Source of the DNA: Isoetes taiwanensis
Taxonomy: Eukaryota; Streptophyta; Lycopodiopsida; Isoetales; Isoetaceae
DNA length: 64,000 bases
Direction of reading: 5' to 3'
Assembly (NCBI GenBank): GCA_021234155.1
Contig: JAJEKV010000281.1
Coordinates: forward strand, 372,001 to 436,000
The number at the start of each line of letters is the position of its first letter. Position 1 is the first letter of the stretch. Below are positions 1,622 through 44,974 of the stretch, one piece after another. The notes beneath the pieces are model-generated. The model worked only from the letters and a program-made list of their open reading frames with translations, searched no databases and was not told the origin of the DNA. Made by a program: the position numbers and the translations under genes.

Positions 1622-1760
1622 TGTTATGCAGTGTTCCATCACGCCCTAAATCAGACGGCCACGATTTAATTAGACTAATTGGACGGTGGGGATCAAACCA
1701 ATGCAAGGGTAGCGATTAAACTAGGGCAATGACCAAACAGGGTTATGGAGCTTGGAGCAA
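1618..1760 (+). repeat. Dispersed repeat, copy 1 (partner at 22308-22470)
   Basis: The stretch shares wording and order with 22308-22470: both run through CCTATATTA(T/C)AATGTTA, then a CGCCCTAA block, then an ACGG-rich block, then ATTGGACGG/ATTGGACAG and GATGCAA/AATGCAA. The two copies are diverged and gapped. It could be the end of an LTR or another transposon family. Confidence 0.45.
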
Positions 1761-7578: not shown

Positions 7579-7615
<37 letters not shown>

Positions 7616-17564: not shown

Positions 17565-18575
17565 TTACCAGGCGAATGATGGAGCCGCCAAACAGAGGCG
17601 AAATATGGTGGTTGCCGGTGTGGCCATCAGCACTCTTGTTGCAGCCAAATTGCTGTTCAGTTTTTTCTGGAATCGGGACCGAGGTGAGTATGAGCTTATA
17701 CTTTTCTTGCTGGACAAATTCTATTAAATCCTAGTACAATCAACTGCATTTTTCTATTAGGTCATAGGCATTTGTGGACTTTCCATCTTGCATTAGAGCA
17801 TTTCCATCTTGCAGGCACGAACAGAAGGAAGAAATGATGATCTGTTTGCTTCTGATTTCCATCAGTGGGAATTATCCTGGATGGACAACTCTGTCAATTC
17901 ATTGGAAAAGGATTCTCACATTTACAACTTTTCAGCGATATCTCACCTATTTCCCGTAGCTGGCATTTTTGTGCAACGTCGCAATGCAGACACAAGTTTC
18001 TATTGCAAATCTATATGCTTATATGTACAGAAGCAAGGCATTCCATAAGTTACAGAACACTTCTCATGTATAACATGAATCTGTATATTAAACTTTATAT
18101 GCTAATGAGATTGCAGACATGCAAGCACTTCAATATCCAGAATGGATTAGAGAAGCTGTAAAGTACGGGCTGTCTTTCTAGAAAATGGCTTTGCCCATTT
18201 GAGATATTGAAAACAACTTACATTATCTCAGAATCCACTCATATTCATATTGTATCTTTTCCTTTATTGTTCATCTAATATATCATTGTTACTAGCTTGC
18301 AGATTATATTGCACTGCGAAAACGAGAGCGTGCACAAGCAAGGAAGGGCAATTCTTGCCATCATCGAAAATTCTTTTCCATCATGTATGTGTTCATCCAG
18401 TTTCTTTGTTTCAGAAACAGGTCTTTGGTGCATTATAGGAACACGCAAGAAGTCGCTCCTCCAGTTTATATCATATTCAACTGGCACAAATATATGGATT
18501 TTGAGGCCTATGTAACTGGAATAATGAGAGCATTTATAGGCAAAATTTGGAAGCTGTATATTTGGAAGCTGTAGT
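17565..18575 (+). CDS. Unidentified multi-exon gene or gene remnant with one membrane segment
   Basis: A chain of exon-like pieces with AG/GT borders lies on the plus strand. They are ANDGAAKQRRNMVVAG followed by a hydrophobic helix (ISTLVAAKLLFSFFW) to a GTGAGT donor at 17684; ARTEGRNDDLFASDFHQWEL from 17815; MQALQYPEWIREAVK from about 18114; and IALRKRERAQARKGN from about 18305, with an open frame that then runs to about 18573. The basic RKRERAQARK helix and single membrane span are the only visible traits. The phase at the 17684/17815 junction does not fit the best frames, so the gene may be broken or my exon borders wrong. No family is recognised. Confidence 0.35.
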
Positions 18576-19143: not shown

Positions 19144-19590
19144 AACAACCAACATAACTACTATTAACATTAATTAACACAAACCATTACATTAAACATG
19201 TTTAAAATTAAATTCCCCCTTAAACCCCCTTTTGTTTGGGTGCATATTCACCTGGGGTGACGTGAGGGCGAGAGCCCTGTAATTATGTTTTGCACGTACA
19301 AAATCAATACCATATAGTATATTGCCTGAAATCTTATAGTATTTTACAAATCTTGTTATACAGTATAACAAATTTTATATATCCATACCCCACAAACGAG
19401 GAACTTTGTGTACGGTGTAGATTAAGGAATAAGGGGAGAATATGCCTATCCAATAGCTCTCGTTGCTCGGAGTCACCCCCGTGTGAATATGCACCCAAAC
19501 AAAAGGGGGTTTAAGGGGGAATTTAATTTTAAACATGTTTAATGTAATGGTTTGTGTTAATTAATGTTAATAGTAGTTATGTTGGTTGTT
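19144..19590. mobile_element. Foldback element: near-perfect inverted arms of about 106 bp around a 220-bp centre
   Basis: The left arm runs from AACAACCAACATAACT at 19144 to GCATATTCAC at about 19251. The right arm, from GTGAATATGC (about 19483) to GTTGTT at 19590, is its reverse complement with essentially no mismatch. Weaker inverted similarity continues inward (GGGGTGAC/GTCACCCC). There is no gene inside. The near-identity of the arms suggests a recent or conversion-maintained element. No clear target duplication was seen. Confidence 0.85.
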
Positions 19591-23763: not shown

Positions 23764-23785
23764 CGCGGCGGCCAAGGCCGCCGCG
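23764..23785. repeat. GC-rich perfect palindrome
   Basis: CGCGGCGGCC, AA, GGCCGCCGCG: 10-bp arms and a 2-base centre, at the outer edge of the left arm of the large inverted duplication, in otherwise A/T-rich DNA. Confidence 0.9.
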
Positions 23786-25776
23786 AACATTTCTCTTTTC
23801 TAAATGCACTGCAAGGGAGGCTGCCGCGAACATTTCTCTTTTCTAAATGCATTGCGAGGGAATTTGTGTCACTTTGGAGTGAAAAACATCTCCAACTGGA
23901 TCTATAGTGTATCTGAAAATGGGATTCAAGTGGAATTCACCTTGAAAGTTTTCTATGTATTTTAGAAGACCTTAAAAGGACATGGTTGCATAATAATTGA
24001 CATTATCTAAGAAAAAATGCCATTTCAATGGAAGAGTTCTCATTGAAAGCTTTCTTTAGTCACAAACTCCATTATAATACATATATTGAGTAGTATGTCC
24101 TGTAACATGATATCATACTAATATCTAGATTTCAAAGTCCAAAATGCTAGCATGTTTTCCTAACATGACATCATACTAAATATCTAGATTTCAAAGTGCA
24201 AGATTGCAAATGCATGTCATGTGTAATTTCTAGAAATAATAAACGATTGATTCTTGTAATAAGCTGGGCTAAGTAGGTGCCAAACTGGCTTGTAAAAAAT
24301 GTTATTGATGAGAAAAATTATAAAAAGTGATTATTTGCTCAAAAGTCCTAATAATATTATTAGGAATGAAAATCAAATTGATGCCGGGACATCATTTACT
24401 CCATCGCCAACCTTACATGACCTTCAGTTAAAATACTTTCAGGTTTAATAACTCCCTACCTAGTTTATTTTCTGAAGGTTGTGTAAATTACCATATCAAG
24501 TGTGACTCCACTTTTATGCAGAGAAGGAATATATTTAGATTTCCCTTGAGGCTGAAGAGCCCCATGAGAATCTTCAATTGTGTTGATGCCAATGGGGCTC
24601 TTCAATCGTGTTGATGCCAACGGTCCTAGCTATATTTGCTACTGCCTCTTCCCTGTCCCCTGACAGTAATTTAGTTCTTATTTCCATTGCACATTTGATT
24701 AGAAAGGATATGAAAAATCTTGTTTATAAATAGTTGACACTTGTAAGAAAAGTGGATACCTCACGCAATGCCCTTTGCATCTTTCCTTAAAAGTGTCAAT
24801 AACACCATTTGTTCCAATGATCCCCTTTCCCTTCATTCCCATATAAACAACCAAAACCTGCATCTTTGCCCAAAAGCAATATGTTGCATGATCCTTCTTT
24901 TGATTGTGGATGCTTTGAATGCTACCGGAGTTACTTGAGGCTCTGTTCCATGGACAAAGAGATATTCATTAACATCATATATGCGCATCATATATGCTAG
25001 CGTGGCAGAAACAACAGGAGTGAGTCCTTTTAGATTATCCATAGAAGCTTCAATGACAAAATCTGAAAACAAAAGTTGTGGATGGTAAAAAGCAATTCGC
25101 TCTCACGTCATCTTGCCTGCACACATTTGTATGATTATGTTGAAAAAAAAAAGAGATCCGCAATCATTGCAAGTGCTGCATGCCTACAAACATCAAGAGT
25201 CCAGGATGGGAGTGGCTTATCTGCAAAGCAAATCCATGCGGATGCTTATGTCTATGGCCTTTCAGATGTATCATATATATACACACACCATTTCTAATGT
25301 TGCATGATGAATCTATTTCTAATGTTGCATGATGAATCTGGAACTTTTTCTTTTTATGAGGAATGGACTCTTACATTGTATAAAGTTAATTGAAACTCAA
25401 AACCTTGTACCAATCTTCTCGCATCATCCTGGCCTGGAGCTTATAATGCAGTTTACCTAATTCTTTGCTCTGGCCTTGGAAACTTTTGAAAGTTCTGTCA
25501 CTACGTGCATATGGAAAAAGTAAGGCATCTCCCGTGAGTAACCCTGAGCGTTAATGGGTAACCCTGAGCCCTTCACAGGTGAGAGAACTGAATAAGAATT
25601 GACAATAATGCTCAACTAAAACAAAAGTTTAGCATTCTATGCACATGGAAAGACTAAAAAATACAAAGCTAGAGTTATTTATATTTCCATTTCCTATGAT
25701 TGAAGCCATGGGAACGAAGTTCCAAGAAAACAACATCAGTCTAAATGGGTGTTCTCTAAGAAAATGATAGGGCAAT
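23765..25776. repeat. Left arm of a large inverted duplication (partner at about 46735-49110)
   Basis: Many blocks match the right arm in reverse complement. Examples are GAACATTTCTCTTTTC (23786 / 48925), CATGGTTGCATAATAATTG (about 23980 / 48750), the ATPase remnants (24380-24860 / 47640-48065), CATTAACATCATATATGC-like (24968 / 47500), and the block around AGCATTCTATGCACATGGAA (25631 / 46900). Identity is clearly below 100% with many small gaps, so the duplication is old. The inner edge is where the 18-kb insertion begins. Confidence 0.85.
24380..24860 (-). pseudogene. Remnant of a chloroplast-type copper P1B-ATPase (PAA2/HMA8-like), left copy
   Basis: Minus-strand fragments in order: VYMGMKGKGIIG (about 24830), then LLSGDREEAVANIARTVGI (about 24611-24670), then IPSLHKSG (about 24505), then VGDGVNDVPAS (about 24380-24412). 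These correspond to the P-domain and hinge (GDGxND) of copper-transporting ATPases. The GDRE form is closest to the thylakoid member. Frameshifts, stops and missing segments show a relic. The intact protein moves Cu+ into the thylakoid lumen. Further upstream, minus-strand frame 24833-25072 may be another degraded exon. Confidence 0.6.
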
Positions 25777-27599
25777 GGGTATAAGCACGCTAGGGTGATA
25801 AAAAAAAGGGCCATTCGAATACATTACATATAACGTTATGTATTTTAATTATAGCAAGTTTTTGATTGCCATCATTAAAGAAAAATGTCATTATTCGAGT
25901 GTACCAAAAATTCCCTCCATTTTGTTCCCCCTGTTTCTTGGCTAACCGAGTGGAGCAAGAATTGGTTTGTTTTCCGAAAATTGGCACTGCTAGATCGTTT
26001 GAACCCGCTCGGAGCACTGCATATCCGTGTGATCTGCCCCGTAAGTTTTGTTTTCTTTATTTTGTAGTTTTAATTTTTCGTGGATTTCGGTCGAAAATGA
26101 ATTCAAGAAGTAAATGTGAACTGGTTCTATGGATTAAAAATTGAAAAGCGGTATTTTTCAAGCTAAATCGACGTAGGTTTAACATGAATATAAACAATGC
26201 GTTTGGTTTAAGGTCTGATCTTCAAATATTTCATCTTATAAAATCAAATTTGTTGCTTTGTTCATTTTGCAGGTACTGTGAACATGGCAAAGACCCCAAA
26301 GAAGACACCAATCAAGGGTTCAAGAAAGTCTCCAAGGACCGGAAAGCCTCCAGCAAATAAGAAAGCTTCAAGTTCGCATGCCAAAAGGGAAATTTTACCT
26401 CGATGATACCGTGTTTTTACGAAGAGGCGGCTCGCATTAACTGAATTTTGTGATGTTTACGAGCAGTATGATGCTATGGTAAGAGAGATATGGGGTGATG
26501 AAGCACCAAGCGGTATGGCTATAAGGATGACGAATTGATATCAAGTGGGGATTTAAGAATTTCCGCAAATGGTATGAATTTGCTTTTGGAAGAAAAGATG
26601 TTATGAATCACTATGTCCCTCCTCAGACTTTGCAAGGGCATTTGCATTGCATCCTAAAGGTGCGTATGGACCGGGAAGATGTCAAAGCATGGGCCGATCG
26701 GGCAAAAGGATTCTCGATCTATCTAGTGAGGTGGTGACAGTAAAATCTAGCAATGCAAATGCAAAAGCCCCAAGAACTTCAAAAGCTAAGAGTTACACAA
26801 AGGAGCAATTAGAAGTTTTTAGTAACTTCTTAGACAAGCAGATCTATTGTGAAAACATCTTTAAGCAAGAAATTAACCGAAAGCTAAAGGAAAGAAGGCA
26901 AGAGATCCTTGATACATTGAAGCACAAGGAAGGGGAGAGAGTTTATATTAGGTTGGTCCAGAAGCAGAGAGGAATGTTGAGGCAAAAAATGGGCATTGGA
27001 GGATCAACAATCAAACCTGGACCAAACATCGAAAAGTGCAATAAGATTTCAGCACCTAAAATGGAAAGTTGAGGATGCTATCGAAAGCAAAAGGACTCTA
27101 GAATGCGAGGATCGGCCGAGCTCGTAAACATATTGACATGAATCTTCTGGGAATTGAAACATGTAGATGCAAAGATTGAAGCTACATCTATTGATATGAG
27201 CTTCTCGGTGAGGCGTGAGACAAAAAAAAATTATGGAACTCGGGGGAATTTTAGAACATTCCTCGATCCTTACTTTGACCCCTCCTCTCCGGTCTACAAT
27301 TCTTGCGGATCGATTATTGTTCGCCTTTTTCTTCATGTACATATTGTGAACAATCTTTTGGTGTGAATCCAATTGGTTCGGCACCCGCAGACACCCTTAT
27401 TGTCTTTTTGTGTATATCCTATCTTGCTAGCACAAAGATCTCATGTGTTGATCCCCATTTGCCATGGAATAGCAATTTGCTCAGAAAGCACTTGGACCGC
27501 TTTTGCAACAAAAGGTTAGTACATGTACATTTGAATTACAATTTCTTTTCTTATTTTAATAGTTAGATTCTTTTTTGCATGAAGGTTTTAGGCTTGCAT

Positions 27600-28070
27600 T
27601 TACATTGAGTATTTAGATACATAGTTTTTGTAGTTGGATAATGTGGGTTCAGTCATGTATAATCTGCCAAATAGACTACTTATTTTTAAAGATGAGAGTT
27701 TTTAATTTCATGTGCACATCAGCTCAGTAATGTAGGTAGCTAATTACTTGTTATTGAGAACTGTATAGTGTAGCAATTGACAGATACATTGCTATTGTTG
27801 CTGTCAAAATTACATTTTGAGTTGTTATTGAATACTTCAAGACTCATCAGTGGGCAGAGTACAATATCAGTAGATTTGTTTACATTGATTGTACTTGTAA
27901 CAATGAATTTTGAGTACATTTCAAGACATTTCAACAAGACATTGAGTACATTTACTTGATAAATCGAAAGTACATTAGCAGATGGATACATTGGAGTACA
28001 TTGTCGGGTTAATTTTTTTCGATGGCATTCTTGTAGAGTACATTAAGAATACATTTCTTAGCTGATGATC
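27600..28070. repeat. Intron rich in GTACATT/TACATT words
   Basis: Between about 27780 and 28050 the word TACATT recurs roughly a dozen times, often as GAGTACATT or AGTACATT, in a non-coding stretch of the plus-strand gene. A related cluster lies at 33838-34100. Confidence 0.6.
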
Positions 28071-28959
28071 CGATATACTCAATGTTTGACCGATGCGGTG
28101 ATTTTGGTAGCATAAGGAAACCGAAAAGGGTATGATATTGTAGTCTTGTTAATCATGCATATTCCTTTTCTTATCTCAAGTCTTTTTCTACTCTCTATTG
28201 TAGATGACAGTAAGAAGCCAACAGCACTTTCTTCCAAGGTATTGGATTTGACAGAAGGTCAGGAGGATTTGGGAAATACTTCTACATGGGCATCACCTGT
28301 AAACCTTGTAAAGTCTTTTGAGGAAGAGCTTGAGGTACCAGTGAAGTCCTCGGATACATGTAAGTAAATATCACATCCGATTGATTTACAATCCCTGAAT
28401 TTAATTTTCATGTCATATGAGCTTGATATGTCACTTGGAATTCCATATAGCCACGAGCATACCGATTCGAACATTTGTGGATTATCTTGTGAGAGGTTGA
28501 AAAGTTAAAGCGTAGGCGATGTAGTTAATAACCGCAGGTATGTTGCATCTTCTTTTTGCTTGTGTGTCGCGCAATTATTAAACACCATTTTTTGTAGGTT
28601 CTTCAAGTTTTTCTTCACAATTATAAAGTTCCGATTCCTCGGGTCTTTCTTCACAATATAAATTTCCAGACAAACCAATTTGGAAACCTATTAAGCCAAT
28701 GCCATCATTTCAAAGCAGAAATGAAAAAATGTCATGGAGTGATGATTCAACAGGTATACCATTAACTTAAAATTAGGATTCACAATCTTTTGATTAACTT
28801 TGGTGACTCATTTATGCAGAAGTGTTGGAAATTGGTGAATCTTTTGCAGCCTTTGTTCAGGCAACCATTGAAAAGATAGAGGATAGTAGCCATATTAAGG
28901 GAGAGGAAGAGATGGTGGAGGTACAAGAGATCCAAAAGGATGATGTGGCAGTGGAGGAA

Positions 28960-29090
28960 ACCAGAACCGAGGAAACAAAGGCTGAGGAAACAAAGGTTGA
29001 GGCCACTAAGATTGAGGCCACTAAGGTTGATGACATAGAGGAAACCAAGGTTGAGGAGACCAAGGTTGTTAAACAGGAGAAGCAGACAAG
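28960..29090 (+). repeat. Coding repeat: (E)ETK(V/A)E units
   Basis: Codons for TEETKAEETKVEATKIEAT, then KVDDIEETKVEETKVV, form an imperfect 15- to 18-bp tandem repeat (GAGGAAACAAAGG-like) within the acidic region of the Ulp1-type gene. Confidence 0.8.
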
Positions 29091-30499
29091 AAAAAGGAAG
29101 GACCAAAAGCAAAATACAACTTCAACCAAAAGGTGAATATTTATTATGTTAGTTGAAGCTTTTAAAGTGTAATATCTGAACAATTTTATGATGACTTCTG
29201 CAGGACTAGAAGCCAAACATCATCTGAAAGTGCTCGATCTGGAGATGACAGCACAGGAGAGTAAGTAAGATTCTGTTGTAGTTGCAATTCATTTTGTCTC
29301 TCAATAATGCAAGTTTGGTTTACTGAGACCCGAGAGCTTGTTGAAAATAGTTCCATGCTACCCTTTCCAAAAAAGCCTCTAATCAAGGTGACTAAATATT
29401 GTGTGGAAGGTCTTTTGCAGAGACAGCACATGTCCAACATGTGCATATAGACATATTTGGAAGGTAACTTGATCAGATTCTTTTTTGCATTATGGTTAAC
29501 TACTTGAACTCTAACCTCACTTGCTTTGTGAATAGGTATCCGATTAGCATTATGCCCCGACAAATGGCGTGATGCATTTTTTTTTTCTTCCCTCAGGAAT
29601 TTCTTAGTTTCACTGAGCAGGCCTTTAACAAACTGTCATCTGATGCAACTTCGATGGTACAGTCTGGATTGGCTGTAGTTCAAAAAGGGCTTCAGGGAAT
29701 CATATTGAGCAAATGCCAGTACATTATGATTCCAATCCAGATTGAGGATCCTATGCACCATGCACTGGTCATCATTATTTTAGATAAGGCCAAGAACTGT
29801 AAAGACACCCTTTGTCTTCTCGCCTATCCTTATTCTCAACTCGCTAAAGAATGTGCAGGTTGACACGAGGATGGTTATGATGTAAGTGCACTCACTATTA
29901 ATTCGATTGTAATCTTTGCATAATTCTGATGTTATTTTCTATTGCAGGCTTCATAAAGATATCATTACAGCATTGACTAATTCCAGTTCTCGTAAGATTG
30001 ATATTTATGTGAAGAATTCAGTGCAGAAAGAAATTAGACCTGAGGTTCCACAACAAGGTGACCTGGCCTCCTGTGGTCTTTATGTCATGGGTTATATGCA
30101 AGCCTTTGTGGATGCCCAGTGCGTGCTAAGAGCATGGTGAGATAACATATCAACAATTGCTTTTATATAATATTTGATTCTGAAAACTATTTGTTTTCAT
30201 TCTTTGATTCTCTTGATTGGTTTGATCGGAGAATGCATACGTCCAAGAGACATGTGCTCATTAAGGCTATGATTAATTATAAGAGCCATCTCATTAAAAC
30301 AGGCACTACTAGCACCTAAGAGAAGCATGGTAGTGCTTAACTTCTTTCATAACTCTTTATCAAATGAGGCCAATTGGCTTTTTTTCTTATTGAAACAACA
30401 CTAAGCCATTTGGCTTTATGTAATCTTGATAATGTAATCAATGAATGGTTGCAATCCTAGTGCTACCGTGATGTTAATTATATTTTGCTTCCTTTACAG

Positions 30500-31140
30500 G
30501 GACTCCTAATATTTGAGATCCAAGGTGTTACGGGTTACTTTTATAGAACTCCGTGAATCAATATTTCCTCTTACAAGCCCATAATTCGGAACATGGAGTT
30601 TTCTTCATGGACCAACAATGAAAGCAATGCTTCAATATGCCTCCTTTCATTGGGATTTGGCCATATGGTCAACTCTTCCCTTAGATATCATAACATCAAT
30701 TTTGGACAAGCTCTATGAAGATGGCATCCCAAAATTTAAACATGTTTATGGAAAGAGAGATGTTGGGGACTTCCTTATACAAATTAGGTTGGTGTAACCC
30801 CTCAAGTAGTACCTATGGATAGTATTGTCATTGAATATCCTTAATACAATGGTCGACTCTGTGGTGTGTTTGAGTCTAAGCACAAAGCTCTTTCAACAAA
30901 AGAAAGTTATGTTTGTGTGCCACTATGGACACCTTTGATAGAAACCGCGACAACCATCATCCTTCTTATTTGATTGGTGGTAGGGTTGAAATATGCACCA
31001 GATTTTGCCAATTACATAAAGGAGCATAAGTTGGATGACTCTTGGGACATATATGGTGACATTATCATCAAGACTATAGTGGATGAATCTGGCGAAGATA
31101 TGAGCAGGAATAAAAGGCCCTATGTACAATGCCTTTGATA
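30500..31140 (+). pseudogene. FCP1/NIF-type (HAD) phosphatase domain remnant
   Basis: After a TTTACAG acceptor the frame reads GLLIFEIQGVTGYFYRTP and a stop. A coherent run follows: GPTMKAMLQYASFHWDLAIW, STLPLDIITSILDKLYEDGI, then KFKHVYGKRDVGDFLIQIR (about 30608-30795). Further on come PMDSIVIEYP (about 30810-30840) and FANYIKEHKLDDSWDIYGDI (about 30998-31060). Plant NIF-domain phosphatases have this order: LLVLDLNG, the EFLKFC...VGIWS block, then the YL...F..SWDFY-like end. The catalytic DxN position is E-I-Q here, so the copy would be inactive. It may be a host gene piece captured by the transposon. Confidence 0.5.
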
Positions 31141-31309
31141 AACCGAATGCCTTCCACCGTAACTTTTCTAGATGTGGACTTGCTTTCATAACTACTTGTT
31201 AAATTATATCTATTATTAATATCTAAGGTTGAGGAAGTTTTATTATTAATATTTAAGATTTAATACTTTATAAATGCTAATAACTTTTAACTTTTGTTAT
31301 TGGATTAGA

Positions 31310-31631
31310 AGTTGAGGAAAATGAAATTGAAGAGGAATTTATACATGGAGCGTAAACTTAACAAAAGGAACTTGTACATGTACATGGAGCAGAGGTTGAA
31401 CCAGATGAACCACCATCTCCTTTAGGGACTGAAGCAGAATATGTTCCAGATGTACCATTCTCTTGTGGCTTAGGGTATGAAGCAAGATTCCTTACCAGCC
31501 TGCCTGGATTATGGGAACAGGTCGAACAGATCGAAGACAGAAGCACCAGGGATGAGATGCTAAGAATACTTTGGGCAATTCACAAGATCTATGATCCCCG
31601 ATCCTTGGGAAGGAATCAGTTTGCCAAGTGA
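31310..31631 (+). pseudogene. Coding-like stretch, unidentified
   Basis: The plus-strand frame includes EVEPDEPPSPLGTEAEYVPD and LPGLWEQVEQIEDRSTRDEM and reads on to IYDPRSLGRNQFAK before a stop at about 31629. Composition looks like coding sequence; it may be the 3' part of the upstream plus-strand genes. No domain is recognised. Confidence 0.3.
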
Positions 31632-31957
31632 ACACGAAGTCAACCGTAGGTCGCGTGGAGCTGGAGTGGGCTTCCAATTGCAAGAGAAGCAGCTAGATGG
31701 CCTCGCCACAACTAGTACTAACATTATATTTTCGGCCGGAAATCTCAGAGAATGGATGCAATACCTATGAGATTTCAGCCACCACAGATGTAATAGTTAG
31801 GCATAAAAGAAGTTGATATATTCGTAAAGTTATCAATAACAAGAAACAAGTTTTGAAATAAGTTCATGTACTCAATTACAATGTAATATAAATCATGTTA
31901 CACCAAAGACTTTTTCTCTTTTCAGATTACTTCTCTCCAACATATAATCTGTTCAAG

Positions 31958-34900
31958 CTATTCCGCATCATGTAGCATTTCGGGGCAAACTTCCCAAGAG
32001 TAGCATCTCATGCACATCGTAGACAATGCATAAGCTGCAGAAGCACCCTTCACCTTATGATTTACTTTTGGCATTGCAAACTTTGCTCCAATAACAGACT
32101 CTGCAGGTACAAGAACTTCTTTGTCATCCAATAACTTATACTTGTGGTGACAACCAGGCAATTTTTGATAGTAATAGGCGGATATGACTGTTTCACCTGT
32201 ATGGTGATAATTTTTGTAATCGTCAATAACATTTTCCTGGAAAACAAATTTTGTTTTCTTGCAAAGTAGGATATAGTATGGCACATTTTCTTCATTTCCT
32301 GGTGCAGCAAAAGAAGCAAACATATCACCTACCTGTACTAGATCTTCTAGCTCTTCATTTACATTTGCAAAAGCAGCAGTTTCCTCATTCTCTACTTCAC
32401 AATGAGTACTTACTCGGGGTACTAGCTTCTTTAATTGCCACTTCCCACAGAATGAAATGGACTCACAAGCATCCCATTCAAAGTTAATGCAACCATTGCG
32501 TATAAAGATAATGGTCTCACCATTACTAAGGTGGGGTCAGTTTGGACTTATAGAAGCTATAGCATGCAATTTCGAATACCGTGAAGAGGTTGCACATCTA
32601 ATGCATTGGTTCTATCAATATCGACTCCTTCACTTCCCAAGATACTCGTTAACATTAGATTGCTTGCTCCTCAAGACAACACAAGCATCATGTGCACCTC
32701 TAATCTGCATTCCATGTTCTCAGAATCGCTACACCGCAAGTACCCTTGGCCTTGGCGGACTCTCCATCATGTTCACCTTTTCCATGCCCGGAACCAAAGT
32801 AGTTCCATTGTAAACTAATGCCATATTCAACATGGTACCCGGTAATGAAATATAAATTTCTTCGGACTTGTATTGCGGCAAAGACAACCATCGAATTCAC
32901 ACAATATGATATGTACATGAGATCCACCATTCTCTTTCAGCCATTTCGGATGAAGCTTAAATGTATGTTGTACAAAATGTGTATCATGATTCTGTCATCG
33001 AAATATACAAGTGAACAGTCTTCTTCAAGATGCCATTTACCTTTAGCATGGTAATCTGTACCATTATAGTAACTTGGTCGCAGATTCCAATGTTCGACCG
33101 AACCTCTTTGAAAGGCTTCAATGTATAATTTTCTGCAAAGTCAACCACCGATATCTTGAATCATCTCTCAGGTTTTGAACACATCTTCGAATTCTTTTGC
33201 TTTGCCGCTGAGCCGCAAAGTTGTGATGGATAAATGTCTTCATGTGACCAAACATGGCATCCAAAGATACAGGTGCATTTGTTGTCTTGTCCACCAATCG
33301 AGCCTTCTTGAGACTCCTTTTTTTTTTAGACTTCTCATCCACATAAGAGTATATTTGCCAATTGACTTCACTTTCAATGTCATTTTCGGTTTCTTTTGGA
33401 CACAAGATAATGTTACGCTTACCAGTTCTTGCAATCACTTGTAATACAATTTAATTTGTGCCACTCGTCACTATCTGTTTTGGACAAACCATACTCCTCC
33501 ATAGAGTCTTGACATTACAAAGATGTATGCTTGTGAGCTCGACAAATTCCATCATTTTTGTTAGCAAAGACAAACTTCACAATTGCAAACTACAATTGAT
33601 GTGGAGCTTAGCCCTCATAGAATTAAATGCCTTCCTGAAGTTCTCTGCTTGCTCATGCTTGACACAACAACATGTGTTTCTTTCCTTTAGCTTCCTTACA
33701 CAATCAGGTTTGAGGTATTCGAACAATCTGATGCCAATGTCTGCCTCTGGGTGTTGCTCCACAAAGTTCTGGTACAGTTCAGCCTGTGCATTCAAATCAT
33801 CATAGTTAATAAAAGATTTTGTATGTGCAATTGAGTACATGCGAAGTCAAAATGTACTAACATGTACTCATAATGTACTCATATGTACTCATATGTACTC
33901 ATATGCACTCAGAATGTACTTACAATATACATAAGGACAACAGAATACACATTACACATGTACATTAAATACATGTGTAAGGATAAAGTAGTAGTGTGGG
34001 TACATTACTGTACCCTAGAGCATATTACTGTTCTAGAGTAAATTCTTGAAGTCCATAGGCACTATCTGAAAGTCTAAGTACAAGATATGTACTCTATAGA
34101 CATGTATAACATACAATATTATGCAAATATCTAATCTGTACATTGGTTAAGAATTTTGGAGTCACTGCATAAATAAGAAAGGAAGATTTAGTATAATATA
34201 CATGGTCAATAAATGTAAGCAAACCAACAAAGGTGATTGCATATGTAAAAGTAAGTAAAAGTGAATACATAAATGATAGATCAGTCATTAGAAAGCATTC
34301 ATACATCAAAACAAAGAAGATACTATAAATTCCAATAAAAGTGAACATATACATGAGGGATCAGAAGCATTTCATACAATAAAGAATGAAATACCTGTGG
34401 TATATCAAGAAACTGGATTGCTTGATGCCTTTTCTTTCTTACATCCCTGTATTTAGGTGAAACCTTGGTGTTGTTTAACCAAAATTGGATGACTAATTGC
34501 TTTGTGTCTTCGTCCAAACAATCGGATCTTCTCTTTTACACCGCTAATGCCCATATAGTTGGACCTGCAATTTTCATTCTCTTTCTTCTGCCTGCAGCGT
34601 ATGACAAATTTCGAGGATGGCAGTTCAACATTTTTGAAGCAACTCCTTTCTGCTTCAATTCCCCATTTTTCCCAACAATCATGGATAAAACAGTGCTTGG
34701 TCGCCAACTTGTCTTTGCTATTAGAAGATTTAACCTCTTCTAATCCATCTTTGAGATTTTGTAACAATGAATGTTTCACCACTGCTTCTGAAGGTAGCCC
34801 AATCACAGGTTTAAACAACCCCAAGAGCCTGTTATCTTGCAAGATCCTGGAAACCAATACCTCTCTTTCACCAGGAGATAGAGAACTGGCTTCATTTCTG

Positions 34901-35133
34901 AAGCATTCAACAACCTTTTCTGCTCTTTTCCTGATTTTTTTGGTGAAGTACCTGGAATATGATCTGCCATTCTCATTGTTGATGGATTATCACTCTGTCA
35001 CTTCATTCAGCATGTCATTTAGAGTATCTTGTTCAACCATTTTCTGCTTCCCTTTGTCGATTTCGGTATCACCGTCCTCATTTTGGACATCAGCCTGAGT
35101 AATTCTGTTCATACTTTGATTTTCTTGTGCCAT
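31958..35133 (-). pseudogene. DDE-type transposase (DFAENY / GHGKGEHDG family), multi-exon, damaged
   Basis: Reading leftwards from MAQENQSMNRITQ (35133): exons at about 34920-34453 (FWLNNTKVSPKYRDVRKKRH), 33840-33577 (LKPDCVRKLKERNTCCCVKH), 33438-33143 (VDKTTNAPVSLDAMFGHMKT), then VVDFAENYTLKPFKEV (DFAENY region 33122-33142), then an FDGC...QYKS stretch (about 32870-32895), then WNYFGSGHGKGEHDG (about 32763-32810), and a C-terminal exon 32323-31958 (APGNEENVPYYILLC). The Asp of DFAENY, the Asp of (S/F)DGC..QYK and the HGKGEHDG motif mark a DDE/RNase H-fold transposase-like family seen in large eukaryotic DNA transposons. Several motif joins need frame changes, so it is probably inactive. The superfamily is not decided. 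Confidence 0.65.
33838..34100. repeat. TGTACTCATA repeats in a transposase intron
   Basis: ATGTACTCAT is repeated four times in tandem near 33867-33905 (one copy altered to ATGCACTCA), surrounded by further GTACT/TACATT words up to 34100. It lies between two exons of the minus-strand transposase and mirrors the TACATT-rich intron at 27.6-28.07 kb. Confidence 0.75.
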
Positions 35134-35362
35134 GCCCCTACTACTACTATGAAAACTGATATGCATGCAAAGATCCGGCAAGAATTTGAAATTCTTTTCT
35201 TTGTTTTAGATTCTTAGACCGTAGATTGGAGGGAATTTGCTTGCTTCGGATGGATTGGAGAGAATTTGCTTGGATCGGAGGGAATCCAGGGATTGCGCCC
35301 AAAATTTCGCAACAACCGTCGGCCACTTCATGTCATGATGACAAACAACACGATTGCAAATT

Positions 35363-35390
35363 AAACGGGAGTGTTGCATCACTCCCGTTT
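35363..35390. repeat. Perfect hairpin (11-bp arms, 6-base loop)
   Basis: AAACGGGAGTG, TTGCAT, CACTCCCGTTT. It lies 230 bp upstream of the minus-strand transposase start (35133) and 308 bp from the end of the methyltransferase-like gene, at the junction of modules A and B. Confidence 0.9.
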
Positions 35391-35697
35391 CAAAGATTCC
35401 CTTTAAAAAAACACCATGTTTCTAAAATAAGCCCTTTTTGATAGTTGTTGAGAATTTCTAGAGGTTTGCATTTTTTTTCATGCCATTTTGGCCCATCATT
35501 AGGCGAAAACTTTGTACTTATGAAACAGAAATCATAAAAATAGCGAAATTTAGGCATAGACTTGAAGAGACTGAAAGCATTACAAAAAAAACCACCAGAA
35601 TAGAAAGGAAAAAAAAGTAATATGTTTTTAATAAATTTTTGTACATCAATATTGAAGATTCATTGTAATAAATAATGATAATTTTAATATGCAGTAG

Positions 35698-38600
35698 TCA
35701 AAGATCTACATCATAGTCCTCCTCATTCTTTTGTCGCTCTCCCCGCCTCGCCCTTACATTCAATCGCTCCTTTGTTGGAGACTTAAGTTTTGTATCCTCC
35801 TTGTTCTTCGGAATGGTAGCTAAAGCTACTTCTTTAAGCTCGCAAAAGGTTGCCTCATTGCCTAGTGAGCTCGAGAATGGAGGTCAGATCTCCGAGGACG
35901 TTAGTTTAGCATAATCAGATGAAGACTTGGCCCCTAACTCTTGATTTTCATCTGGTAAAGTAGGTAAGGCAGCCAGTCTCATCTTCACAAAATGCATGAC
36001 CTCCTTATCAATATCCACGGCTACATAGTTGGGCCCTTCTTAAGTGCACATGCGATAGTAGTACCTAGAACGGAGAAAGCATCAAGCATTCCAATCTCCG
36101 GACGGTGAACATGTCCGTGAGATGGTTGATGAGCTTTTGTGGTTTCGGTAGTGATTCACAATCCTCGCCTTTGTGCACTTGGGTCCCGCAATTTCGTGAA
36201 GAAGGCTGGAAACTCTAGGACGCTTTGAAAAGTTTTGACAAAGCTAGGTGTTAAAGTGTTCCATGGACCTCTTCCCATCAAAACTCCAATAAGCTACATG
36301 AAGGGCCTCTACCTTGCCGAAAGCAACCTTGGTCCTCCACCATGGTAGTTGATGTTCGCTTTTTGTACCTAGTGAAGCATTTAAAGTGATGTTAGCAAAA
36401 ACAAGAAAACACGAAAAAACCACAAAGTGAAACACTATTCGGAATACACTACGTAATTAAAGAGAAAAGTAATTGTATTCGGAATAAGACTTGCCGCACA
36501 AGGTTTTCATATCCCCGAACTGGAGAACCAAAGTGATTTTTGAAAGCCGATTCCACCAAGCCGATCGCATGCGTTCGAATGGAACGTAACTAAACGCCAA
36601 TGTTTGGCCGTTGAGATCCGCTTTGATTCCTTCAATGAAAGCATTAAACTCGAAAAATTTGAAGGGCTGGTCGTCAGACTGGCATTGTCTTTAAGTTTAA
36701 ACCCGTAGGGAAGATCAGCAATAACCAAAGTAAAAGTCCTGCGGGCTTAACCGCGCCGACAAGGTTCGTGGTAATCACCATGAATGATTGAATATAAATT
36801 GTTTTGATCAAACATGAATCTCTCGTGAGTCGGATGGTTCGGCTCAGCAGTTCTTCTTTTCACCAACCTCTCTTCCCGTCTTTGTTCTAACCAAATTCAT
36901 AAAGCCCTCGGGCGGTGTCCTTATTTTTCTTTTTGCTCTAAAGAAAACAAAACAACAACCGCCAAGAGATCGTTTGTGCAGAAAAGGAATTTTGAGAGCA
37001 CTTACCCAGCCCTCAAAATTTGGTGCATATTGCACAATGCGCTTCGTCGGATGTGGCAATTGGGTAGAGTTCCTTGCACCTTTCCCATGTTTCGACGTTT
37101 AGCTGCTCCATCAAACATGTTTGACATGTTATGACTTTCTTTGGCTGCAAGACGCTAAGGAAACAATGAGATTAAACGTAAGAATCAAGGCAAAGTGAAA
37201 GGAAAACAAATAAAAGTCAAGCTATTTGTATTCGGAATACAAACCGGGTTAACCGGGTGATGCTACCTCGAAACAATATGCGTAAAATAGTTCCGCTTAC
37301 AGGACAAACATCGCTTGTCTCTAGAAAAGCAATGTGTATTCCGAATACGATTGCTTTCTAAAGGAGGAATGTGTATTCGGAATACACATGCCTTTCTTTA
37401 GAGGAGCAATGTGTATTCGAATACACAATGCTTTTCTAGAGACAAGCAATGTGTATTCCGAATACACATTGCCGTGGTGGAAGGAAGGCATGTGTATTCG
37501 AATACACTATGTACTGATGTTTTTGGGAATCTAACATGCAAAGAGTAAAGTTTGTGTCGAGAACTTACTTGTGCAATTCCTTTGACATTTCTTCTAGGCT
37601 AAACTCCTTATCAACAACTTTTTGGAGAAGCTGCCCGTAAGCTCCGTGTCGAGAAGCCCCCGTGATTCCGCACGGAATAATGGTCATTTCTTTTTGGGCA
37701 CGCCCCAGGTTTTTTCTTTGGCTGTCTCCTTGCCCTTGCTCTTTAACTCCCTCGCTCAACATTGTAAATATCTCGCCGGGAGTTCCCAAATCTGTTCAAG
37801 AAGATTTCACGCCAAATAGTCGGTTTGCTATTTCGAATACATTTTGTGCTTACCTTTGCCATCTCTAAAAGTTAATGGAATTAGCTTGTCGCGGGCCAAT
37901 GAGAGACCGCCTTTTATTGGCCTCGTCATATTTTCAAAGATTCAATGGCACACGCCCTTAAGCTCCAAGGAAAACCGGGTTTTAAGGTCCTCACCGCACT
38001 TTTCCTTGAAAATTACATACCCCCCGTGGCATAAACCGGATCTTGTCGACAAAGCTCATCTTTAGTTTGTACTCATTGTCAAGATTGTGGGTGTTGGCAA
38101 CGATTTTTGCTTCTTCATCCAGAAGAAGACCACAGTAGACAACAGCAGAGGCGGAGAGAGGTACCTCGGTTCTTCTTTTCTTTTAAAGTTGCCTTCTTGC
38201 CTTGAAGCTATGATTCCCTCCCAAGACGTAGTGAGTGTAGGTGTCGGTCGTTTTTTCGCCATACTCCCGGGGGGTTGTGCCTCGCCCCCACATCAACAAG
38301 GACAACTATTGGGGCCACATGAGCATTTGATTGCTCCTTATTCTCTGTCCTTCGTGTTCCTCAAGTGATCGGCATAAATTTTGCGAACCTGAAGTGGCCT
38401 TTCACCACTTCATTTTTCGGAGGAAGCTTCATTGAAGTGATTTGGCAAATAAATGACACCTTGCACAAACTTGTGCAGGGTTAATCTCTTCCATTTTTCA
38501 GATGTTTTATCAACTTTTTTTTCCTTAATAGCAACACCAGGTGCTTTACCCTTCCCTTCTTCTTCTTAGGTTCCTCGGGACTCTCGGATTTCAAGTCTTT

Positions 38601-39241
38601 GTGCTTTCCGCTTCTTTGGTTCTTTAGCAGCCTATGGTTGCCCTTGGCCTGCTAAGTTTCATTGGCCGCATGGGGTTTCTTCCTCGTCTTGTTCCCCGGA
38701 ACCTCCATCCGATGACCTCCCTCAAGAACTACCATCCGAGGGTGATGATTGTGACCTTTCTCCATCCTCAATGCTCGGACTCACCGACGGAAAGTCCTCG
38801 CCAGGGACCGGGTACAAACCCGTCTAATTCATGAACACAGGCTTCTTTTTATCCCGTAGTGTGAAAAGAATTTATACAAAGGCTTTGGTTGCACAATCGA
38901 CAATTCTAAAAAATGCGATGTCCACAACTATGAAGCCTTGGGAGGTCTTGAAGGATAGCCTCCCCACTGACCACCTTGTCCGGCAACTTCCTCAACATCT
39001 TTTATTGTCCCAAGGTTCACAAACTCGAGTCGGGCGTATTTTGTTACCAAGACTTTTACGCATCGGCAAAAAACGCAAGCAGGTCAGATTTTCCATCTGC
39101 ACCCCCTGGTTCCGAACCACCGCGTTTGAAAGTTTTCAGTAAATAGCGTGTTCGCGGGTGTCACGGTGTTTTTTGTGGGTGTGGACGCTTAGGCTTATGA
39201 GATTTCTTTGATGCCCTCTTGCTTCCTTCTTCCCCCGCCAT
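35698..39241 (-). pseudogene. DNA amino-methyltransferase-like gene (beta class, N6-adenine/N4-cytosine type) of the transposon
   Basis: It starts at 39241 with the basic MAGEEGSKRASKKSHKPKRP and ends at TGA (35698-35700) after ERLNVRARRGERQKNEEDYD. Exon-like pieces include FVQGVIYLPNHF (about 38440-38480), IPCGITGASRHGAYGQLLQK (about 37600-37680) and EQLNVETWERCKELYPIATS (about 37050-37110). Catalytic motif IV is VIADLPYGFKLK (36691-36725). After it come PKPQKLINHLTDMFT (36104-36148, motif X) and LDAFS-x-LGTTIACALKK (36037-36090, SAM-binding motif I), then NYVAVDIDKEVMHF. The order IV-X-I is the beta-class permutation. DLPYG replaces the usual DPPY. Frameshifts and stops in the motif I region suggest decay or unresolved introns. 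A weak GASRHGA resemblance to ParB-like folds is noted. Confidence 0.6.
36434..37507. repeat. Palindrome array 1 (GTGTATTCSGAATACAC-type) in methyltransferase introns
   Basis: Copies at about 36435-36450, 36473-36488, 37226-37242 (TTGTATTCGGAATACAA), 37334-37350, 37371-37387, 37411-37426, 37451-37467 and 37492-37507. Each is a self-complementary 16- to 17-mer. Spacing in the dense part (37334-37507) is about 40 bp. They lie in the introns of the minus-strand gene. Confidence 0.85.
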
Positions 39242-39492
39242 CACTAAACGTTTAAAACAACAATGTTAAGACGTAAATTCGAACGAAAAACGTATTCCGT
39301 AATAACATTTACTAATCTTGTGCCCTAAAGGCCGAAAAAGACAGAAAAACAAGCGTAAATATAGTAACTCTAAGACAATTTTTGTGCCTTAATTGACTCA
39401 AATTGTTATTTTAACCTTTAAAGTGGTCCGCTTTTAGCTAAAAGGTGTCTTCATTAAGTGCTAAAAAACAAGAGTTTTCAAAAGACAAGCAA

Positions 39493-39800
39493 AAGTGTAT
39501 TCGGAATACACTTTGTTCTTCGGGTGAAAGAAAGTGTATTAGGAATACACTTTGCTTAAGTGAAGTGCAAAGTGTATTAGGAATACACTTTATTCTTCCG
39601 GTGAAGAGCAAAAGTGTATTCGGACACACTTTGCACTGTAATAGCAAAGTAGTGCAAAGTGTATTCCGGAATACACTTTACTCCTTCGGGAAGGGCAAAG
39701 TGTATTCCGAATACACTTTGCACTTCGCCAAGGAGGAAAGTGTATTCCGAATACACTTTGCTCTTAGACAGATGGGCAAAGTATATTCTGGAATGCACTT
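39493..39800. repeat. Palindrome array 2 between divergent genes
   Basis: Eight copies of AAAGTGTATTC(C/G)GAATACACTTT variants start near 39493, 39532, 39570, 39612, 39655, 39698, 39736 and 39777, a regular 38-43 bp step. The spacers are also similar to each other (CTTCGG, GAAGGGCAAA words). The array stands between the start of the methyltransferase-like gene (39241, minus) and the plus-strand gene at 40203. Confidence 0.9.
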
Positions 39801-40017
39801 TGCCCTACAAAACCAAATCAGGAAACAAAAGAAAGACGTACTATGTACTTTATATGCTTACCTGTCCATTGTCTTCGCTATGTAAATCAGAATACAGCAA
39901 ATGTATATTGATCGGAAGGCTGGGTCGGGCGACTAAATCTCTCGAAAGGTATCACGCGCCCCAGGCGCTCGATTTTCCTTTTAAAGGTAGGCCATTGTCA
40001 GTTGTGTTTTTCTATGT

Positions 40018-40140
40018 AATGCGGAATACGTCTTGTCCAAACACTCTGGACAAGTGTATTCTGGAATAGCATCTTTGCACACACACAGCAAATGCTGCAC
40101 ACAAAATACTATTCCGGAATAGCATTTGTATTCTTGAATA
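40018..40140. repeat. Palindrome remnants upstream of the DUF7869-like gene
   Basis: AAGTGTATTCTGGAATAGCA, ATACTATTCCGGAATAGCAT and TTGTATTCTTGAATATC are decayed members of the same family, ending about 60 bp before the plus-strand start at 40203. Confidence 0.75.
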
Positions 40141-40202
40141 TCATTAGTCCAATCGACTTGTGAGTTAGTAACAAGCCCACAATTTTTTGCAGTTGTTTGA
40201 CA

Positions 40203-43200
40203 TGGTTAACCGCTTCGTGAACAAACTTCCACCACCATTTGTTTGCCCAAGTACCTCTACTTCAGATGGAACACAAGACGGAGATGCTTCTTCAACACCT
40301 ACCTCGACAAGGTCTTTGTTGCTTCTCGAAGACACTCCGAGTCCAGTAACTAGCAGACTGCCACCACCTTTCCAACCCTCTCCAAGTCCAGTAGGAAACC
40401 GGCTGCCACCACCTTTCCAACCCTCACCTGTTGCACGTAGCAATCTTCCACCACCATTTGTACCATCCCCCGACACTACAATGGCTCGACCTCAGAGAAT
40501 TTTTCGAACCGACTCCGGGCCCTTTTTGTTGTTTCTCCATCTTCACTTACACGTGAATACAAGACGCTCAAGACTAATAGATCCTCCATCGCTTCCCACC
40601 ACGATTTCACTACAAATGAAGACGACCCGGCAAAGATCTACACCTCTTCACACAAACGCGGGACACATGGGTTTGCAGAATTTCACCGCTTTTAAGAGAC
40701 ATGTTTGAACGAACTCCACAGTGGAAGACGCTTACAACAACTTCGCTGGCACATCATATGGTGGCCCATCTCCTTCATTCAACACCGCACCTCCGCCTTT
40801 TATCCCACCACAGCTTCACGTGGTTTGTTCTCCTCTACAAGCACACCACTAAGGGTAGAGGAGGTCACCCCCGTGAGTAGAACTCTCTCAGAAGATGAAG
40901 ACACCAACGAAGTGCAACGAGATTACACATTCTCTAGCCAATCCACCAAGAAATTCAAGGTGGATTTTAGTTTGAGAGCATGCTCCTCCTAAGAAGAAGA
41001 AACCTTATGGACGAGCACAAAATGAGAAGACTTTTAAGAAGTAATGCTGCCATTGGGTTGCATCAACAAATTTAACATGGCTAAATTACGAGCAATTAGA
41101 GACAACCACAGCTCAATGACATTGGCTGACCAGAATGCCTATTTGGCCTATCATAAGACTAGACCGCAACACCTTCTTGCACTACATTAACCATTAAGAA
41201 GTTTGCCGAATGCTTTATGGTTATCCACCGCTTAGGGTCCACCGTAATGTCTAGAATACACAAAAGATCGGACAAAATCCAAAGAATTGATGATCATTGT
41301 GGACCAAGAAGAGTTATAACCATGCATGCCCTTGCTACCGGTGGTGGATGGAGAAATATTTTAGAGAAACATGTGAGAAGCTGCCAACAAGAACATGTAT
41401 CATTTAACCGATAACATCACCAAAAGATGTTTTAATGAGTACAAAGAGACTTGCACTCGCCTTCAAAGACATCTCTTTACTCACACTTCACCGTGACCGT
41501 GGAAAGTGAATTTGGTTTAGTGAAAATTCCCGTGAGACATAGAATGTCTGCTTTGTTCAAGGTGCGTAATTAAAGAGTCAAAGAGAATCGCAAAGATGAG
41601 GGTCGAAAGAAGTAAGCTCATGTTCTCCAATCTCTCACTTGTTTTAAAGATAATGCTTTGACCTCATTTCTTTCTACGTGATATTGTGCAAATGTAACCT
41701 TGCCGTGATTATCGTGGAACAACAAGCAGCAGAGAAGAAAGCTTGCCAAACAAAAAAAAAGCTCTTGAACGTCCATAATCGCAAATATATGTCCATTGTG
41801 ATTGATGGAATGGACCAAAAACTACTCTACCAAGATTTCTTGAACATTCCTAAAGATAAAGAGGAATGTTTTGTTAAGGTCCACCTTGTAGGAGCTTTCA
41901 TGGTCTTCAAAGGAAGTCTAAAGTGCAAAGTATTCTTGACGATCCAAACTTGCATGGTGACCCGAACCTCATAATTACAATTCTTAACAAGGTCCAAGGC
42001 GAAAGCAAGAGCAATTACCACCGCTTTTACCCGCAACTTGACAATACATTACTAAGGGAGAACAAGAACCAAACACTCTTTAAGGTGATCGGCCATGTTA
42101 GTGGAGCTAGGATCTTTAGAAAGGTGAAGCCGGGGTTTACTTGTAGGCCACACTCATGATCAAATTGACCAAATGTTCAGAGATTTTCTGTAGCCTAAGG
42201 AAGAAGGCTCTCTCTTCCTACTTTAGTTCAATTATTGAAGATTCTTACACTCCCACTCCAGTGGATCGATCTTCTTAAAGAGACTCCGCTGATTTCGGAG
42301 AGTTTATTTTCTCTCAACGCTCGCACAGAGAACAAGCCGTGAACAAATTGAATGATCTCACCTTTCAACATCACATCAAGTTCTACTTGAAGGATGACCG
42401 TAGTTTCTTCTGGGGCAAGAAGTATACCACAACTAAGGACTAGAGTCCACCGAGGGATTACGCTTCCTTAACTTCCTTCAGAGCGTCGAAAGCAACTTCC
42501 TCTCAAAAAATCCTCCTAAGGAGTCCAAGGTACCCCAGAGTCATCCTTAAAAAGCAATAGAAAATGGAATTTCCTCAGTTTTTAAGTACTTTTTAGAAGA
42601 AGATCGAATGTGGTGGAGTAACTTCTTCTAACAGAAAAATTGTTGTGAAAAATATAGCTCTTAAGATTTGTAAGAACCATTTCAATGGCCTGGGAATACC
42701 TTCCATCAACCCCAAAGACTAAGGTGTCCAAGCAATGCTAATGCTAGCACCCCGGCAGAGGAAGAAGACGCAGGATCGAGTCATCAAAATTCGACCAAGA
42801 CGCAGAATGAGCCTCAAGGTAATATCACAGAAATTACCAAGGGTATGCTAATTGCTCTTCCTAATCGAGGAGAGGATGACAAAGGCCTTCTTTCCGGATA
42901 GCAGTGCAAGCTTGACACACTAAGGAGGAAGGCTTAGTCACTAAACTCAAGATTCATTGGCTTGCAACACGCCGTAAAAATGCTTTTGAAGGTAGATATG
43001 AGTTAGAAAATGAGAAGCCATGAAAAGGAGAAAGTCCAAGAAGGTGGGTTGTAGGGATGAGTCGATCCTTAATGACGGGACTATATTATGCTATGATTTT
43101 AAATTGAAATGACAATCGCTTCACGCTTTGAGGGACTATCAATTTGTTTAAAAAAGCTTGTAATTACGTAAGAAGAGGATGAAGGTGGTGGCAATGCTTC

Positions 43201-43320
43201 CACCATCTGCTGATAGTGATGAGGAAGATAACTCAAGCACTTCCTCTAGTGATAGTGAAAAGAAGTGAAGGTGATGAGGATGGCATAAAATGAACATGAT
43301 GACGCCCCCGATCCCTCTCT
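40203..43320 (+). pseudogene. DUF7869-like (DDE-type) transposase relic with a Pro-rich N-terminus
   Basis: The frame from MVNRFVNKLPPPFVCPSTST (40203) carries three to four PPPF(Q/V)PSP repeats, then a Lys-rich part (PPKKKKPYGRAQNEKTFKK, about 40985-41040). The core follows in three frames: YMSIVIDGMDQKLLYQDF (IDGMDQ at 41801-41818), FVKVHLVGAFMVFKGSLKCK, FYPQLDN and RENKNQ (42034-42072), and VGHTHDQIDQMF (42143-42178). The order DGMDQ, QLDN-RENKN, GHTHxxID is the signature of DUF7869 proteins found in large transposons. The tail includes FQHHIKFYLKDDRSFFWGKK (about 42363-42422) and an acidic Ser-rich end (about 43180-43265). Frameshifts between the motifs show it is inactive. Confidence 0.7.
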
Positions 43321-43824
43321 CATCACTCCTCACACTTTTTGTACATAACCGAAGTCTAGAAAAATCAGAATTTTTGTGATGTTGAATATGAAGATTCTAT
43401 CTTCAAATTTTTTGAGAATACTACAAGCCAGCTACTGACTTTACTTCAATTTTTTGTTAAATATTTTATCCTCGAATTAGAGACTCCTGTAAAATATACC
43501 TTCAAGAACATTCTATTTGCTAAGAAAAGTGACACTTTAAAAATGTCAATTTTTGTTGCAAAAAAATTAGTCATTTTGGGGGTCAAAATAGAATTTCATG
43601 CTTTTTTTTACCCCCTTTTTACCCAAAAAAGGGAATCTTTGGAGGAATATTCCTTCGCTTACATGATTTGCCCGCTTAACAATGCCAATCTTGTTAAACA
43701 ATCAAATATATTCCTTTTTTTTAAATATATAACAACAAGCAACGTGGCCTCCCACCATACATTCAAATTACATAAAAACGGTTTTCTAGTGCAAAATAGT
43801 ACATGAATTTAGAACTAATGTATG
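43321..43824. other. Right end of the 18-kb insertion, non-coding
   Basis: A/T-rich, with T and A runs. AAAGGGAATCTTTGG at about 43628-43642 is the approximate reverse complement of CAAAGATTCCCTTT at 35391-35404 and might mark an inner element boundary, but this is weak. Confidence 0.4.
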
Positions 43825-43846
43825 ACACCCTAGCATGCTTTTACCC

Positions 43847-44974
43847 CAATTGTGGATGCTCTAAAAACAACAATTGCTCCGACATAGATTACCGTGTCGT
43901 CGCATTTTAAGATGAACAATTTCATATTAAAATGCATCGCAATAAAACAAAGAACAAGCACATTCACCTTTTCAAATGATCTTCATCCAATGAATCGTAT
44001 CCTTTGAGCCAACGACTGTCGGAAGAAAAGCGATATGATGTCAGACCAGCAATGGCTTATTGCCCAAAGAAAAGAAAAATAAACATATGATACTGACACG
44101 TAATTAGCTTCCCGAGGAAAAGAACAGAACTTCCTACCGAGTCGACAGTACGCCAAGGGAGAGAGATATACCTGGCTGCTGTTCACTCCACCCAAACAAG
44201 GATTACAGCATGTATTGAAAACACGTCGAAGATAACGTTGTTGGTTCCCACATCACAGCCGGAATCGATATTTGTGCAAAGTCGGGATACCCTGGTTTGG
44301 ATTGCGGAAGAACTCAAACGCCGGGTACACACCGGCCGCACTACGCAAGGCCCGGTTAATATTGGTAAAGAGAAGACTGGCCGAGCTCAAGAATGCAGCC
44401 GCCGTCACGCGTGATGCAAGAGGCGCATCTGGGCGCTGGAGTGGCGGAGGCAGCGGTAATAGTGAGGGTAGATGATAACCGCGACGGCCAACGGAGTGGA
44501 ATCTAGAGGGAAAAAATGGGCGCAAGGGTTTTTCGCGACGACATTGCCTGAACATAGCTTTGAATCGGCAAAATTTTGGAGAACACAAATGACGCCCCTC
44601 ATCTCGGCCAAATATTACCGAACATGTCGACAAGTAACTTCACCGCGACTTCCTATCCTAACTCACCTAAGATTACCTTGTTTGAGCTAATCGTAGTGAA
44701 TTACTTAATGCATCTAAGTCGGGTGAATGGGTCAGTTTTTACTATCTTCCATGATCACTTGACTTGCTATGTATTATTGCTTAGATTTTCTGGACGCAAC
44801 AGCCCAAATGGTTCGGCAGTCGCATCGTTATAGTCACCATAGCCCACCGCGTCAGCTGTATATGGATGTTTAAAGAAGAAAGTTAATATGGATTGCGTAG
44901 CAAGAAAGGGAAAGAGGAAAACCTAAAGGTGGCCTCTGAATTGAGCAGGCGGCTATTACTTGCTTTTTTAAGTC
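43847..44974. other. No supported gene
   Basis: The first 45 bases resemble, with small gaps, the outer sequence of the right arm on the minus strand, as expected for the flank of an insertion. A basic frame at 44272-44475 has no recognisable domain. Confidence 0.5.

Follow-up and report, generated by a model that had tools for sequence, protein, structure and literature searches.

Sola transposons feature a DDD transposase, 4-bp target-site duplications (TSDs), sizes of 2-9 kb, sometimes exceeding 15 kb, and terminal inverted repeats (TIRs) from 11 bp upwards, and are known from moss (PMC10741241, PMC9033089). Ulp1 protease genes are among plant DNA transposons best known from MULEs (PMC13317346). 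The DUF7869 family (PF25273) is recorded in Pfam without a function. All three bear on the locus described here, which resembles the first in its outer part, shares one gene with the second, and hosts a member of the third.

The window analyzed, a stretch of 64,000 nucleotides from the genome of the quillwort Isoetes taiwanensis, contains a long insertion, annotated at first pass as one 18-kb DNA transposon. With a probability of roughly 85%, we read it as two transposons of the DDE/D cut-and-paste type, one nested in the other: an outer Sola-like element with an accessory block, and an inner element of the DUF7869 type. That the window copy is itself decayed weighs against this reading. The features, in window coordinates, are the following.

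10373-10693: 321-bp MITE with the ends of the outer family, TSD GCAA
25773-25776: CAAT TSD of the outer element, left copy (4-bp TSD in 14 of 15 copies)
25777-25797, plus strand: left TIR of the outer element, GGGTATAAGCACGCTAGGGTG
25777-35346: left and main part of the outer element, 9,570 bp, continuous with the full copies L039-L048
26578-27069, plus strand: coding remnant of an accessory gene; intact copies have a coiled coil and a weak RING-like Cys/His pattern (Pfam below cut-off)
29573-30137, plus strand: Ulp1/C48-like cysteine protease, two exons (HALVI ... PQQGDLASCG); PF02902, 24.6 bits with the spliced family exons
30557-31114, plus strand: NIF/FCP1-like phosphatase domain, decayed in the window copy (5 stops); relatives match PF03031
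31961-33846, minus strand: catalytic part of the outer transposase (predicted DDD, RNase H fold), with stops and frameshifts in the window copy
34456-34986, minus strand: N-terminal exon(s) of the outer transposase gene
35343-35346: AAAC TSD of the nested element, left copy
35347-43695: 8,349-bp DNA transposon nested in the outer element, with ends AACACGATTG / AACAAGATTG; absent from full-length outer copies, with genomic copies of its own and a 4-bp TSD in 3 of 3 pairs
37328-37507: subterminal tandem array of the palindromic unit GTGTATTCCGAATACAC, nested element
39492-39803: another array of such palindromic units, nested element
41163-42159, plus strand: DUF7869 transposase remnant of the nested element (PF25273, E 1.3e-7; intact relatives E 3e-51)
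43696-43699: AAAC TSD of the nested element, right copy
43696-43846: right end of the outer element
43826-43846, minus strand: right TIR of the outer element
43847-43850: CAAT TSD of the outer element, right copy
46765-46776, minus strand: paralogous empty target CAATTGTGGATG, in the right arm of a host inverted repeat

The ends assigned to the insertion at first pass, 25777 and 43846, hold to the base, and the CAAT duplication reported beside them was found on both sides. The left end begins with GGGTATAAGCACGCTAGGGTG, and the right end, reverse-complemented and read inwards, with GGGTAAAAGCATGCTAGGGTG. Inverted ends are therefore present where they had been placed, though their description as matching over 22 bp is slightly generous, since the two are identical at 19 of 21 positions. 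The whole genome (1,658,258,908 bases in 1,110 contigs) was searched for the terminus pattern, allowing at most one mismatch. The pattern occurs 2,028 and 2,058 times (about 4,086 occurrences in 1.66 Gb), its reversed control not once, and the further copies expected by the first-pass annotation do exist. TSDs were monitored in ten paired copies of 8.9-9.9 kb, at both ends of five longer copies, and in the window copy. Among the ten, L047 went unscored, its left terminus not being recognised. In 14 of the 15 outer pairs, that of the window included, the flanking duplication is of exactly 4 bases and does not extend to 5 (CTGA, TTTA, CATA, TTAG, AATC, ATAT, CCCT, CTAA, TTCC, CAAT, TAGA, TTCG, CCTA, CTTT), and the 4-bp duplications predicted for other copies are thereby borne out. 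In the remaining pair the duplication spans 3 bases only. The TSDs of these 14 copies and of the MITE share no fixed motif.

The outer transposase gene is broken in the window and intact elsewhere (ORFs of 620 and 629 aa in copies L059 and L060); 10,159 first-look candidates were found genome-wide, 138 of which were scored. Between subfamilies dN/dS is 0.09-0.16, a sign that the transposase stayed functional in the lineage, under purifying selection. Conserved motifs include VVDFAENYT, VWSDGCAAQFKSR, and GHGKGEHDG. The full-length protein folded poorly in modelling (mean pLDDT 45.6), and a domain model of 227 residues, built from 32 genomic sequences (pTM 0.74), was used instead. The modelled order, strand-strand-strand-helix-strand-helix-strand-helix, is that of the RNase H topology; D50 lies on strand 1, D134 where strand 4 ends, and D175 ahead of the last helix. 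All three aspartates are kept in at least 90% of the 32 sequences, a level that E177, next to the third, does not reach; the aspartates sit at the canonical places of a predicted DDD catalytic layout. In the VIA structural comparison all 50 matches listed are RNase H superfamily enzymes, among them retroviral integrases, the Mos1 and Metnase transposases, and Argonautes, with Z up to 7.8, in the middling range below 8 which may mean just a common arrangement, so that the support for RNase H is at fold level. Foldseek E-values for the domain are all above 0.001. Judged from the modelled fold, the protein would be a DDE/D transposase. It shares the predicted RNase H fold with the catalytic cores of Mos1/mariner transposases and retroviral integrases, and differs from them in having no sequence similarity to them and in TSD length and ends. 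No match was found in the Pfam scan or in the sequence search against PDB, nor were relatives found in viral and prokaryotic contigs; Foldseek against viral models returned scattered RNase H-like and unrelated matches only. Animal proteins with motifs similar to those of the outer transposase, often labelled as Ulp-protease proteins, presumably exist, and provide a lead. Acting on the 21-bp GGGTAWAAGCAYGCTAGGGTG ends, to which it would bind, the transposase would insert the element at a 4-bp stagger, in targets that share no fixed motif; short MITEs with these ends are probably mobilised by the element as well.

As the transposase matches no sequence in Pfam, PDB, or prokaryotic and viral contigs, the superfamily placement rests on TSD length and predicted catalytic layout, and on these grounds the outer element is best described as Sola-like. 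The comparison covered the described features of Sola, hence Sola-like rather than a Sola member. What fits is the 4-bp TSD (in 14 of 15 copies and in the MITE), short TIRs, a size of 9.7 kb, and a seedless land plant as host, Sola having been reported in the moss Physcomitrella; the DDD/RNase H transposase, as predicted from the model and the conserved aspartates, would fit too. Less probable, though to be taken seriously, is a place for the outer element outside Sola, in some other or in an undescribed superfamily likewise characterised by a DDD transposase and 4-bp duplications. That no sequence relation to any Pfam family or PDB chain could be detected speaks for this, as do the terminal GGG and the Ulp1/NIF block, neither of which was found described for Sola in the literature searched. 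Against it stand TSD length, predicted catalytic layout, size, and presence in a seedless plant, all in line with the Sola of the reviews (PMC10741241, PMC9033089). Moreover, Sola is itself described as a superfamily of distinct subgroups, so that divergence alone does not exclude it.

The Sola-like element carries on the plus strand, convergent to the minus-strand transposase gene, a block with coiled coil/RING-like, Ulp1 protease, and NIF/FCP1-like domains. The 24.6 bits of the spliced Ulp1 exons of family copies exceed the PF02902 cut-off of 20.7; the single window exon taken alone yields no PF02902 score. Divergent NIF proteins score up to 51.9 bits with PF03031 (cut-off 21.8) and keep the HAD motifs FDIDG and FDD, while the subfamily of the window falls below the cut-off and lacks the DD. 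For one NIF pair dN is 0.094 and dS 0.294. The C48 peptidase and the NIF fragment noticed earlier in the insertion are real; the methyltransferase-like gene listed with them is not upheld, no methyltransferase domain being detected in the ORFs that resembled one.

Comparison of hit lists revealed the same convergent order beside divergent transposases. Ulp1, NIF, and transposase are found in C1034 (24007768+; 24008445+, 43% identity; 24009942-, 73%), C257 (183607-; 182771-, 43%; 180519+, 77%), and C1066 (7611823-; 7610947-, 43%; 7608598+, 78%), NIF and transposase in C919 (13344314+, 33%; 13346148-, 60%) and C1028 (14111329-, 45%; 14108993+, 69%). Order and orientation being kept beside transposases diverged to about 60% identity, Ulp1 and NIF form a conserved core of the outer lineage rather than the unusual, freshly acquired cargo they had been taken for. 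By analogy with the Ulp1-bearing KIU/VANC MULEs (PMC13317346), the most likely role of the block lies in countering silencing at the level of host SUMO or chromatin control, which would keep the element active. KIU and Kaonashi MULEs, and Vandal with its VANC-type accessory proteins, are likewise plant DNA transposons with a Ulp1 gene beside the transposase; the outer element differs from them by a TSD of 4 bp instead of 7-12, another transposase, and the extra NIF/FCP1-like domain. The literature search returned nothing joining Ulp1, NLI interacting factor, and transposon. With this block it can be asked directly whether SUMO and phosphatase functions serve transposons against silencing beyond the angiosperm MULEs.

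A bolder proposal is that the outer element represents an undescribed lycophyte DDD lineage, in which a module of SUMO protease and FCP1-like phosphatase is standard and counters silencing and drove the element and its MITEs to thousands of copies; taken as a whole, we hold it to be doubtful. Ulp1 and NIF might also be host gene fragments, passively captured and of no function for the element. Plant transposons often capture gene pieces, and NIF is degenerate in the window copy and its subfamily, where the DD motif is lost and stops are found. Passive capture is nonetheless improbable, given that order and orientation persist beside transposases of 60-78% identity, with NIF partners of 33-46% identity in open frames, and that divergent members retain both the HAD motifs and the match to PF03031.

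The nested arrangement of the insertion emerges from ten paralogous outer copies, 8.9-9.9 kb long and 90-95% identical, which are unbroken across the point where the window has 8,349 extra bases. Full copies align to positions 1-9572 and 17920-18070 of the window element as a single continuous stretch. The extra piece (35347-43695) splits GACAAACAATC, intact in the three copies compared there (L039, L040, and L046), and has AAAC on both sides. Deprived of the insert and of one AAAC, the outer element measures 9,717 bases and matches the 9,700-base L039 end to end, at 93.6%. Own ends, the AAAC duplication, and the absence from full outer copies identify the 18-kb object as a composite, a 9.72-kb outer element with an 8.35-kb transposon of another type nested inside, and the single large transposon of the first-pass annotation is abandoned. 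Both transposase types reported for it are real, one in each element, rather than two in the same transposon.

One 18-kb transposon with two transposase genes and captured host genes would account for the enclosure of everything by intact outer ends and TSD, and for the same arrangement in contig C67. It is nevertheless very improbable, since ten other copies are without exactly the 8.35-kb piece, the target ACAAACAATC being uninterrupted where inspected, and the piece has ends, an AAAC duplication, and many independent copies of its own; C67, sharing the insertion site, is a duplicate of the same locus.

In the nested element, the left end AACACGATTG is followed outwards by varied flanks in 20 of the 20 copies examined, and two further copies with both ends feature the 4-bp duplications GGTG and AAGG. 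The arrays of palindromic GTGTATTCCGAATACAC units are possibly transposase-binding or subterminal repeats. With PF25273 the window exon scores 31.9 bits and an intact relative 174 bits, both reaching the cut-off, and the E-value of 3e-51 in the intact relative places the transposase of the nested element in this Pfam family; the family has no function in Pfam, and resides here in a TIR element with a 4-bp TSD and palindromic subterminal arrays. Genome-wide, 9,910 first-look DUF7869 candidates were found, and 150 were scored. Profile comparison, made with shallow profiles, gives no support for a relation between DUF7869 and the outer transposase, and no mention of DUF7869 was found in the literature search. 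The second element (8.35 kb, DUF7869, ends AACAMGATTG, 4-bp TSD) jumped later into the right part of the outer element. For each of the two transposases the genome yields about 10,000 first-look candidates, and in many of them the open frame is intact.

Other groups of transposons were considered for the outer element. The weakest reading, that of a Ulp1-carrying MULE of the Kaonashi/KIU type, is prompted by the protease gene and hardly credible, as the duplications are of 4 bp and not of 7-12 (usually 9), Pfam scans detect no MULE transposase domain, and a different transposase with intact ORFs lies in the same element. Kolobok and piggyBac have a TTAA-specific target, the outer family has TSDs such as CTGA, TTTA, CATA, TTAG, and AATC. 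CACTA (EnSpm) elements feature CACTA-type termini and TSDs of 2-3 bp, in place of GGGTA and 4 bp, and Ginger elements 5'-TG...CA-3' termini, in place of GGG...CCC, along with a Gypsy-like integrase; no integrase (rve) domain was found in Pfam scans.

The target of the Sola-like element is the left arm of a diverged host inverted repeat, the arms of which (23774-25776 and 46765-49133) are about 72-83% identical. The left and right flanks, once joined (24161-43858), match the inverted arm (48275-46765) at 72% in an alignment that crosses the junction. On the right side the match of the window flank to the empty arm is strong over about 12 bp only (CAATTGTGGATG) and weak beyond, the right-flank alignment scoring 86 where shuffled sequence reached at most 64. 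The host repeat has eight other genomic copies that read through the junction, 23-38 bp past it, and these are stronger support for the empty site than the right flank of the window. The paralogous empty site proposed at first pass is confirmed, and to the base, and the alignment to the right arm crosses the junction as anticipated, its short right side excepted. The host inverted repeat is itself a dispersed repeat, at least eight other copies of which span the target site.

A duplicated filled site, including the nested insert, was found in contig C67 (L010, C67:930-4115) at 85.7% identity, and its right flank tracks the empty arm for 834 bp. This copy is an old segmental duplication of the filled locus, and as it carries both, the outer and the nested insertions most likely predate it.

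The 321-bp MITE has about 1,800 first-look candidates in the genome. The 15 best copies, that of the window included, are fully identical, the other 14 having been found among the best 40. The first 124 bases of the outer element of the window are matched exactly by the six best other left ends. The identical MITE copies suggest a very recent burst, and together with the left ends point to recent mobilisation. Both transposons belong to families that are very abundant, and apparently recently active, in the quillwort genome. The published description of this genome stresses LTR elements, and its main text is without such transposons (PMC8566536). With two putative DDD-type lineages, some 10,000 first-look transposase candidates per lineage, intact ORFs, and MITE copies that are identical, this lycophyte would provide a transposon system that can be used in experiments and seems to have been active recently.

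Elsewhere in the window, at 19144-19590, two 119-bp arms, 98% complementary and 210 bp apart, are possibly another short inverted-repeat element.
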